From: a virus
Virus record (IMG/VR): IMGVR_UViG_3300006802_000539
Location: 1 to 24,499 of that record
Strand: one strand, 5' to 3'
Length of the DNA: 24,499 bases
Shown here: positions 815 to 19,159 of the stretch, piece after piece
How the letters are laid out: the number at the start of each line of letters is the position of its first letter
Position numbering within the stretch: position 1 is the stretch's first letter
Notes under the pieces: generated by a model
The model's database searches: none
The model's input: the letters and a program-made list of their open reading frames with translations, nothing else
What the model was told of the DNA's origin: nothing
Position numbers and translations under genes: made by a program

Positions 815-1132
815 ATGGCTTTTAAAATAAATCCACCATATCATATTGATAACACGCCGATATATAAAGTTGATTTTAAAGATGGTGCTGTTCACGGTGT
901 TACTTTAAACACAGGGGCAATTGTTATAAATAGGCATTTACCTACTGACGTAGAGTCCCAGACTGTTAGTCATGAGATGGTTCATGTAGATCAAATAAAA
1001 CGCGGTGATTTGTCTTATGATGATAAATATGTTTATTGGTGTGGTAAAAAATATCCAAGATCTAAAATGAAAGAAGGTGATAAAAATTTACCTTGGGAAA
1101 AAGAAGCTTATGCAAAACAAAAAAGAATTTAA
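815..1132 (+). CDS. minimal HExxH zinc metallopeptidase-like protein
   Basis: A 105-aa protein with HEMVH at residues 53-57 followed by Q60 and G64, the pattern of zinc-dependent gluzincin-type peptidases. Near the C-terminus, PWEKEAY offers Glu95 or Glu97 as a third metal ligand, as in compact DUF4157-like domains. The upstream stretch TGAIVINRHLP would be the edge strand next to the active-site helix. No signal peptide is visible. The start lies 2 bases after the previous stop, and the last 23 bases overlap the holin gene, so the two are probably translated together. Seen: motif and overlap. Known: HExxH + E binds zinc. Inferred: role in lysis or in processing a virion or envelope protein; substrate unknown. 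Confidence 0.65.
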   Translation: MAFKINPPYHIDNTPIYKVDFKDGAVHGVTLNTGAIVINRHLPTDVESQTVSHEMVHVDQIKRGDLSYDDKYVYWCGKKYPRSKMKEGDKNLPWEKEAYAKQKRI

Positions 1133-1568
1133 AGACACAACAGTTGGTAAATTATTATTTGGAGCAGCGTCAGTTGTAAACCCAACTTTAGCTAATGTAT
1201 TAAAAGGAGTAACATCTCCTCAAGAAGCTATAGCTGAAATTACAAAATCTCCTGCGCCAGTTGAAGATAAAATTAAACTTCAACAATTAATATTTGATCA
1301 ACAGAATAAAGAAATAGAGGCCATTACTTCAAGATGGAAAGCAGACTCAATGTCTGATTCTTGGATGTCTAAAAACGTAAGACCATTAGTTTTAATATGG
1401 TGTATTGTTATATTTTCATTTGCTGGAATATTAGATAGCGTAGAAAGTATACCTTTTACAATACATGATAATTGGAACTCTACTTTTGAGAATGTTATGA
1501 TGGCCGTTGTATTAGCCTATTTCGGAGGACGCACGACAGAAAAAGCAACTAGTATATTTAAAAAGTAA
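1110..1568 (+). CDS. holin of the 3TM / GTA-holin type
   Basis: A 152-aa protein. The stretch WKADSMSDSWMSKNVRPLVL is the hallmark of the 3TM holin family (GTA_holin_3TM-like): a soluble amphipathic N-terminal half, then a conserved Trp/Asp/Lys-Asn-x-Arg-Pro block just before a membrane helix (about residues 90-112). A second hydrophobic helix follows (about 128-142), ending AYFGGRTTEK. A weakly hydrophobic segment near residues 10-25 may be the third. ATG 1110 is preferred over an upstream ATG at 1077, because homologous sequence begins there and the overlap with the peptidase is then only 23 bases. Holins make the membrane holes that end infection; no lysozyme or amidase is recognisable beside it. 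Confidence 0.8.
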   Translation: MQNKKEFKDTTVGKLLFGAASVVNPTLANVLKGVTSPQEAIAEITKSPAPVEDKIKLQQLIFDQQNKEIEAITSRWKADSMSDSWMSKNVRPLVLIWCIVIFSFAGILDSVESIPFTIHDNWNSTFENVMMAVVLAYFGGRTTEKATSIFKK

Positions 1569-17683: not shown

Positions 17684-19159
17684 ATGGCTATAGCAGTAGA
17701 AGTAAATTACTTTAATTCCTTTTGGTTAAAAAGAGTTGCTGATAGAGGAGCAGATGCTACAATTACATCTGGATCAAGAGGCGGCAATGTGTTTCCAGGT
17801 ATAATTGATACACCAGCTTTTCCATACTATGCTAATACAACAACTAATATAATAGAACTATATGACTGGTATGTTGAAGAAGCTAGAATTAGAGGAGGGT
17901 ATAATAATACTAATGTAGACTATGGGGTTAAAGCTTACTTAGAAGAAGAATATCCTCAGTCAGCAATTAGGTTTAACTCTATGATTTATAGCGGTATATA
18001 CAACGCTAGAACAGGTGTTAATAATACCAATCAATTTCCTGTTGGTGAAGAAATTATAAGAAGCGTAGACCCTAAACATGGTAGTATACAAAAGCTATAC
18101 GCTGAAGATACTAACTTAATTATATTCCAAGAGACTAAAGTAAATAGAGCTTTAATTGACAAAGATGCTATTTATTCTGCAGAAGGAGGTGGAACAGTTA
18201 CTTCTTCTAATGTTGTTATAGGTCAAATAGTTCCTTACGCTGGTGAGTATGGTATAAGTAAAAATCCAGAAAGTTTTGCAGTGTATGGATTTAGAAAATA
18301 TTTTACAGATAAAAATAAAGGATCTGTACTTAGATTATCTCACGATGGTATTACAGAAATATCAAGATATGGTATGACTGATTATTTTAGAGATCAATTT
18401 AACTTAGTAGACAACGGTGTTGAAACAGGTGAGTTGATTGGTGCTTGGGATAATTATACAAAACAATACATATTGTCTATTAAACCATGGGATATGAGTT
18501 TTGATAATCAAAACTTTAACACTTTAGCTTTTGATGAGAGTGTACTTGGTTGGCCAACATTCTATACGTATAACCCTGAGTTTATGTTTAGTGTAAATGG
18601 TAATTTTTATTCAATACCTAATCAATACGTAAGTGATCCTAATTACACTAGAGCAGATGGTAATGTATATCAGCATTATGTAGAAGGAAGTGGAACAAAT
18701 AGAAATACTTATTATGGTAATTATAGTGACTCAAGTATTACGTTTGTATTAAACCCTAATCCTTCAACACAAAAAGTATTTAAAACTATTAGTTATGAAG
18801 GTAACAATGGTTGGCAAGTAGATTCTATAACTTCAGATGTAACAGGTTTAGATTTAATTAACGCTGTTTGGCAAACTACAAATGATCAGTCAGCTCAAAT
18901 ATTAAGTTATAACGAAGGTGCTTATACAGAAAACAACATACAGTATCACGCTGGGTTTACTAGAAAAGAAAATAAATACGTAGCTAATTTAATTAACAAT
19001 TCGCCTGTGGCAGAAGGTGAAGTTATATTTGGAGTTGATATTAGCGGTATAAAAGGTTATGTAGCAACAGTTAAAATGTCTACAGATTCATCAACAAATG
19101 TTGGTGGTGTTAAAGAATTATTTGCATCATCATCGGAATTTGTTGTATCATCAATTTAA
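17684..19159 (+). CDS. tail protein partner of the muzzle-type protein
   Basis: A 491-aa, beta-rich protein. Its central part holds YAEDTNLIIFQETKVNRALI, VVIGQIVPYAGEYGISKNPE and GSVLRLSHDGITEISRYGMT, a run familiar to me from the C-terminal half of large tail-tube proteins in related phages, where it may be on the same chain as the 'LDERLLPNGEYRDA' start. Here it is a separate gene, 24 bases after the giant protein, with its own ATG and A/T leader, so it is probably a real subunit rather than a broken fragment. No catalytic motif or membrane segment is seen. Likely part of the distal tail or nozzle. Function inferred. Confidence 0.65.
   Translation: MAIAVEVNYFNSFWLKRVADRGADATITSGSRGGNVFPGIIDTPAFPYYANTTTNIIELYDWYVEEARIRGGYNNTNVDYGVKAYLEEEYPQSAIRFNSMIYSGIYNARTGVNNTNQFPVGEEIIRSVDPKHGSIQKLYAEDTNLIIFQETKVNRALIDKDAIYSAEGGGTVTSSNVVIGQIVPYAGEYGISKNPESFAVYGFRKYFTDKNKGSVLRLSHDGITEISRYGMTDYFRDQFNLVDNGVETGELIGAWDNYTKQYILSIKPWDMSFDNQNFNTLAFDESVLGWPTFYTYNPEFMFSVNGNFYSIPNQYVSDPNYTRADGNVYQHYVEGSGTNRNTYYGNYSDSSITFVLNPNPSTQKVFKTISYEGNNGWQVDSITSDVTGLDLINAVWQTTNDQSAQILSYNEGAYTENNIQYHAGFTRKENKYVANLINNSPVAEGEVIFGVDISGIKGYVATVKMSTDSSTNVGGVKELFASSSEFVVSSI

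Follow-up and report, generated by a model that had tools for sequence, protein, structure and literature searches.

A predicted zincin-type metallopeptidase encoded beside a holin in a phage related to crAss-like viruses: a possible accessory of lysis

IrrE/PprI and ArdC are intracellular proteins, and the Peptidase M78/IrrE-PprI/ImmA group combines an HExxH motif with an ExEA-like helix (the M78 motif). The minigluzincins and other small gluzincins (abylysin, 4JIU; jannalysin, 4JIX; selecase; WLM and SprT domains) are proteins of about 100 residues with an HExxH helix and a later Glu in a second helix. Zincin-like MPTases that form part of multidomain polyvalent proteins have been proposed, in excerpts of PMC5512222, as phage-protein processors or effectors. 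In Listeria, a phage-derived secreted HEXXH metzincin cleaves a lipoprotein and raises sensitivity to holin/lysin lysis, according to excerpts of PMC8235301.

We analyzed a small HExxH gene, M, in the 24,499-base virus record IMGVR_UViG_3300006802_000539 (hereafter the window, the whole stretch of DNA under study). The features of the locus are the following:

815..1132, + strand: M (P0001), predicted zincin (gluzincin-type) metallopeptidase of 105 aa (open reading frame, profiles and AlphaFold2 model)
971..985, + strand: HEMVH codons, residues 53–57, predicted catalytic/metal-binding motif, inside predicted helix 44–63
1094..1111, + strand: WEKEAY codons, residues 94–99, inside predicted helix 93–101
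1110..1132, + strand: overlap of the end of M and the start of the holin gene, 23 bases (direct reading)
1110..1568, + strand: phrog_3427-type holin (P0002), 152 aa (PHROG phrog_3427 'holin', 1.1e-17)

The 105-aa protein with HEMVH and PWEKEAY (residues 93–99), the 23-base overlap and the recognisable holin next to it, all reported in an earlier sequence-only reading, were confirmed. The holin ATG at 1110 lies inside the end of M and consists of the second and third bases of codon Tyr99 plus the first of codon Ala100; an alternative longer start for the second gene is a GTG at 1077. Our preferred explanation, to which we assign a probability of about 45%, is that M is an accessory of lysis, a minimal gluzincin-type peptidase made late with the holin, with an M15 peptidase as the main endolysin. 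It draws on sequence, fold prediction, conservation, position and the finding that a near-identical genome has its endolysin elsewhere.

The best profile matches of M were phrog_10499 (3.9e-11) and phrog_16532 (4.6e-9), both PHROGs of unknown function, and DUF6782 (PF20573; 1.2e-4, 21.8 bits, under the 27-bit cut-off), which is named a putative metallopeptidase family. Peptidase_M78 (PF06114) scored 12.6 bits, under its 22-bit cut-off. NCBIfam yielded nothing for M, a PDB sequence search gave 0 matches, and no match to any known muralytic domain was found in PHROGs, Pfam or NCBIfam. An AlphaFold2 model built from an alignment of 29 relatives (pLDDT 83.1, pTM 0.71) comprised, in order, three strands, helix 44–63 carrying HExxH, three further short strands, and helix 93–101 carrying WExEAY. 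In Foldseek searches with this model, abylysin was the top PDB match (E 0.3, probability 0.87; none at E ≤ 0.001), and 12 viral models, of which three bear SprT-like names, were matched at E ≤ 0.001. VIA Z scores were 6.5 for IrrE (84 residues), 5.7 for ArdC, 4.8 for Wss1, 4.4 for abylysin and 4.1 for BepA. Metallopeptidases filled most upper rows of the fold matches, with modest individual scores. A zincin-like fold is predicted for M from the model, as had been proposed, but the suggested comparison with DUF4157 gave no match: Pfam listed none to this family with E as high as 1 (most matches weaker than about 0.1 are removed by HMMER filters), and neither it nor LAS-type hydrolases occurred in the fold-match lists, such lists being no evidence of absence.

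H53, E54, H57, Q60, E95 and A98 were invariant in all 150 unique members of the M family, including the window's, although the figure for HExxH is biased upward because part of the family was retrieved with HExxH-bearing patterns. E97 was kept in 142 of the 150 members and differed in eight, which makes E95 the better candidate for the third metal ligand; judging from the alignment, it likely has this role. The dN/dS ratio of M was 0.06–0.29 in five close pairs; this and the retained HExxH speak against a motif arising by chance. Viral contigs often carry the family: one scan gave 188 confirmed stretches, and a second at least 571 confirmed among the 600 matches listed. The fold prediction and the invariant active site argue for an accessory peptidase of lysis; the absence of a signal peptide from M itself counts against it.

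Distant phage homologues of M in XacN1, Cr30, Melnitz, vB_OspM_OC and pT24 lie among hypothetical genes with no annotated holin beside them, another point against a role in lysis. A glycoside hydrolase 108 gene is located about 0.8 kb upstream of the Melnitz homologue, and an rIII-like lysis-inhibition gene about 2.4 kb from that of vB_OspM_OC. Few bacterial genomes had a relative (3 of 98, counting the one from which the query came). All ten relatives from bacterial contigs had strongly hydrophobic, signal-like N-termini, with a 12-residue hydropathy of 1.88–3.35 (an internal Met was taken as the start of L192); in 148 others the median was 0.2 and the highest value 1.53. One of them, L191, exceeded the Peptidase M78 cut-off (23.7 versus 22); in NCBIfam, two bacterial relatives and P0002 gave matches only far under the cut-offs. 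Seven of the ten, paralogous signal-bearing HExxH relatives of M, came from one Bacteroidota genome (G024; L360, L363–L368). These N-termini speak for a function connected with lysis. In the M-family tree, however, where branches are long and mostly unsupported, the bacterial relatives group with long-branched T4-like phage homologues and not with the window's clade, which weakens the argument; export in the bacterial branch is therefore only a hint for M.

The fold comparison also raises the question of whether M could work inside the cell, as a protease of the IrrE/SprT/ArdC kind whose targets are host regulators, DNA-bound proteins or defences. The Z scores of IrrE, ArdC and Wss1 and the SprT-like names of three of the 12 viral models agree with this, as does the location of distant homologues among hypothetical genes of large phages, and the fact that the best solved-structure matches are IrrE/PprI and ArdC counts against an accessory of lysis. 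Nevertheless, Z scores under 8 may reflect only the common zincin core, and the position of M amid structural and lysis genes points to late expression; a cytoplasmic role also sits badly with the exported bacterial homologues, though they belong to a different branch. We regard an intracellular protease of this kind as improbable.

By TerL and capsid protein, relatives of the window in the phage collection were mostly Flavobacterium and Cellulophaga phages, along with a Maribacter phage and MW202828.1. Two other window genes had profile matches:

2121–2720: co-chaperonin GroES-like gene, close before TerL (phrog_13932, 7e-26)
17684–19159: gene with a crAss muzzle C-terminal domain (PF25729, 2.8e-13)

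The latter domain relates the phage to crAss-like viruses. An annotated groEL is present in related phages. The gene immediately 5' of M (393–812) had no family matches at E ≤ 0.1, and its C-terminal end is an EF-hand-like DGDGDVDANDF stretch. Contig G001 is 99.89% identical to the window across all 24,499 bases and then extends further, encoding a giant 2821-aa protein downstream. MW202828.1, which belongs to the sister clade, has a giant protein in a similar place and lacks M. That M is a domain of the giant protein in cultured relatives was rejected: run even at E 1 with filters off, the profile of M had no match in MW202828.1 or in the stretches NC_055854.1 (10000–59979) and PP540027.1 (27161–77160).

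The surroundings of M contain many small proteins, fibre-like genes (judged by eye) and TerL. Such a neighbourhood would suit a late intracellular peptidase that processes phage proteins in the course of assembly, or a packaged effector ejected with the DNA into the next host; the holin would then be a neighbour only through a late operon. The giant protein downstream in G001 and the functions proposed for the MPTases of polyvalent proteins point the same way. On the other hand, M is a lone 105-aa domain and not a polyvalent protein, and MW202828.1 has its similarly placed giant protein and no M. We regard a processing peptidase or ejected effector as somewhat unlikely.

The neighbour had been described as a holin with three transmembrane segments. 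Its assignment as a holin stood, while the three segments found little support. By hydropathy, P0002 has a single clear segment, beginning at residue 93 (2.39), plus a marginal one at the C-terminus (0.76), so "3TM" is the name of a family and not an observation; the match to Pfam GTA_holin_3TM (PF11351) was 19.0 bits, under the 24.8 cut-off. Three relatives in the same place scored 27.7, 40.5 and 44.3 with this model and a fourth had no match; all four divergent proteins in the holin place match phrog_3427. The AlphaFold2 model of P0002 had low confidence (pLDDT 64.7) and two long C-terminal helices.

Loci were retrieved by M, holin or TerL queries, with the best 80 taken per scan, and the fractions given here therefore describe the sample, not nature. 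Identical M sequences were merged, and L096 was dropped since its M is on the minus strand of the locus, reducing 150 unique M to 149. This M-bearing phage also has a second HExxH protein (L096:8646–9029, G010, minus strand) that matches phrog_15610 'protease' at 6.9e-30. A phrog_3427-type holin was found downstream of M in 127 of the 149 loci, always at E ≤ 1e-15 to the holin profile. The two genes overlapped or were within 10 bases in 60 loci, were 11–500 bases apart in 40 and farther apart in 27; among the 60 close pairs, the spacing was −23 in 14 and −4 in 14. This association favours a joint function in lysis. In 67 of the 127 pairs the gap exceeds 10 bases and often contains small unrelated genes, which detracts from that argument; the intruding genes fit a processing peptidase or effector.

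In L009–L016, M is 80–82% identical to that of the window and the holin about 37%; in L017–L018, M is 77% identical and the holin 99%. The whole-locus alignment to the window starts at 1591, just past the holin, in L010, L012, L014–L016, L019, L020 and L026. Comparison of these sequences indicates that M and the holin have been exchanged independently, which counts against a lysis accessory. The same applies to loci with M and no detectable holin (L052, L058, L059, L174, L187) and to holin-query loci with a holin and no M, with at least 2.4 kb upstream (L257, L260, L271 and L276, all four with M15 nearby; L263, with an amidase; and L262, L272 and L278). Obligate pairing was rejected, as exceptions exist in both directions. 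The suggested check of whether the pair is kept in relatives was answered in the affirmative for many relatives and not for all.

A TerL tree of 77 rows was built by a quick method, leaving out near-identical, short and <2.6 kb-upstream rows. The 35 M-bearing rows fell within one clade of 38, with three changes. Since M is confined to a single TerL clade, shared descent alone could keep it by the holin, and this too lowers the weight of the pairing as evidence for lysis. An independent-pairs test of M versus holin on this tree comprised three pairs only and was not decisive. Weak holin matches entered the holin states of the tree, for which reason its holin counts were not used, while the M counts are untouched. 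M was present in none of 80 loci retrieved by the sister-type TerL, 41 of which had at least 3.5 kb upstream; this argues against a processing peptidase or effector. A firm holin was found in seven of these 41.

The place before the holin is occupied in the sister clade as follows:

L312, L321, L328: M15 abutting the holin
L303, L304: Amidase_2 abutting the holin
L326, L334: Amidase_3 abutting the holin
L343: phrog_33083 endolysin abutting the holin
L346: 69-aa gene, not recognisable as an endolysin, abutting the holin

An endolysin of one of four types therefore abuts a firm phrog_3427-type holin in eight of nine loci (redundancy not removed), with a 4-base overlap in five of the eight. Seven of the nine holins match phrog_3427 in PHROGs, and those of L304 and L334 were recognised by our own profile (5e-58 and 4e-43). 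L299, L309, L322 and L348, whose holin hits are weak and lack a phrog_3427 match, were left out of the firm set, and so was L350 (own profile only, E 1e-3; like L348). In L309 and L322, M15 overlaps a membrane gene by 4 bases; this gene (L309:956–1441, L322:429–908) matches phrog_1544 (unknown function), not phrog_3427, and is a candidate for an undescribed holin family.

L209, L210, L211, L214 and L216 have holins 86–88% identical to that of the window, and in each the holin gene shares 4 bases with an M15 gene (Pfam 3.8e-15 for M15 of L210); a diverged M (E about 1e-15) follows the holin at a distance of about 0.5–0.8 kb. In the window's clade, M holds the endolysin slot, overlapping the holin or within 10 bases of it, in 60 of the 149 unique M genes. 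M15 starts 0.8–3 kb upstream of M in L131, L139, L153, L156, L161, L164 and L061, so part of the clade has M placed after the endolysin and before the holin. The sister-clade endolysins, the M15 genes overlapping L209-type holins and the M15 genes upstream of M all argue for an accessory of lysis, and the idea that a peptidase placed by a holin hints at lysis has thereby gained ground. The use of the slot by endolysins also makes a processing peptidase or effector less plausible.

Several other small genes were observed in these regions. Immediately ahead of the endolysin, a hydrophobic gene of 51–57 aa has the look of an additional holin of pinholin type (L328:1069–1242; likewise in L309, L312, L321 and L131, ahead of M15, and in L303, ahead of the amidase); the L328 copy had no PHROG match. 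Many relatives have, 0–5 bases before M, a conserved gene whose product is about 51 aa long (GLGDxIExxTKATGIK...CGCxxRxxxLNxxFPY); its copies include L139:2920–3075, L046:703–858 and, in a locus without M, L304:1939–2094. Small Met/His/Ser/Lys-rich proteins with the motifs MGHSP, SWMSKH and DMPxxKxAS are encoded near M in L163, L171, L046, L147 and L225; the motifs are possibly targeting or processing signals.

No lysozyme or amidase had been noticed beside the pair, and indeed no lysozyme, amidase or M15 match was obtained for the scanned main ORFs of the window in PHROGs and Pfam (for its last, cut ORF, PHROGs were run on the window version and Pfam on the longer-contig version), nor were PF08291 and PF13539 found over the whole window record. 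Amidase_2 (PF01510) was found in none of the whole records of 20 relatives. Two M-bearing loci (L055, L188) have a cut amidase-like ORF at the edge, under the Pfam cut-off or without a Pfam match. The near-identical contig continues past the window and encodes an endolysin:

33073–33561 of G001, about 8.3 kb beyond the right end of the window: M15-peptidase endolysin (PF08291, 8.3e-17; phrog_894 endolysin, 2.1e-32)

The absence of an endolysin from this phage is thereby ruled out, and the proposed lysis module lacking one could not be maintained. M15 passed the Pfam cut-off in 17 of 24 M-bearing records searched, among them all 11 of at least 47 kb; the seven records without an M15 match were 24.5–44 kb in size. 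The separate M15 peptidase is most likely the main endolysin of the phage. Given an ordinary cell-wall enzyme elsewhere in the near-identical genome, M is probably a helper during lysis or the late phase of infection and not a replacement of the endolysin, and the separate enzyme accords with an accessory role. The region near the M15 endolysin, past the right end of the window (L087:12820–15661, G001), also contains three more genes: one lipoprotein-like with a hydrophobic C-terminus, one whose product has a charged tail and a single hydrophobic segment, and one with a thioredoxin domain. This group possibly includes spanin parts.

The sequence-only reading would have given way to a separate endolysin together with loss of HExxH in relatives, or to a fold other than a zincin. 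A separate endolysin was found, whereas HExxH was kept in 150 of 150 members and no non-zincin fold emerged. As an accessory of lysis, M could act in the following way. We infer that M and the holin would be produced late from one coupled gene pair and that M would build up in the cytoplasm before lysis, held there because it has no signal peptide. The holin lesion would then admit it to the periplasm, where it may cut envelope proteins or peptide cross-links, aiding the M15 enzyme and phage release. The Listeria metzincin, as far as described in the excerpts of PMC8235301, is a precedent for such help.

A stronger form of this explanation, partly inside it and with odds that are not additive, makes M a murein endopeptidase: it would be a further endolysin, zincin in fold, that moved into the holin-coupled slot as M15 went elsewhere. 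Slot and 4-base coupling (14 unique M genes) are as for M15, Amidase_2 and Amidase_3, and the lack of a signal peptide is expected of a holin-dependent enzyme. However, every one of the 11 M-bearing records that reach 47 kb or more retains M15, and no zincin endolysin was found in the literature on endolysins with HEXXH, in the excerpts of it that include PMC8235301 and PMC12992299. No literature on DUF6782 or on a phage SprT-like metalloprotease in a lysis cassette was found either. We regard a murein endopeptidase as quite improbable. It would be just as much of a long shot that M represents a new class, a zincin endolysin of about 100 residues with HExxH that displaced unrelated endolysins from the position coupled to the holin within a single clade of the crAss-like-related Bacteroidota podophages and works alongside a relocated M15.

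Several unrelated endolysin folds occur in the slot before this holin. A zincin there, if true, would add a fold to the slot; or, if true, lysis by Bacteroidota phages would use an envelope protease besides a murein hydrolase. With so small a protein, an obvious active site and a family widespread in viral contigs, the matter lends itself directly to a test on purified protein.

Among known systems, M shares with the minigluzincins and small gluzincins its size of about 100 residues, the HExxH helix and the later Glu in a second helix; it differs in the three short strands that separate its two helices in the model, and the similarity to abylysin is weak (Z 4.4). With Peptidase M78/IrrE-PprI/ImmA it shares HExxH and the ExEA-like helix, and IrrE had the highest Z score, but M is under the M78 cut-off and is a single domain of 105 aa. 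Unlike the polyvalent-protein MPTases, which in the excerpts of PMC5512222 are part of a multidomain protein, it stands alone. The Listeria metzincin Mtz resembles M in its HEXXH; it is of phage origin and promotes holin/lysin lysis. In the excerpts of PMC8235301, Mtz differs in having its own signal peptide, the longer motif HEXXHXXGXXH/D, a Gram-positive host and a TIMP-like lipoprotein partner. The endolysin-holin pairs of phages, in which M15, Amidase_2 or Amidase_3 is coupled with phrog_3427, have the same slot, coupling and holin family as M, whereas M carries no known muralytic domain and M-bearing phages retain M15 elsewhere.
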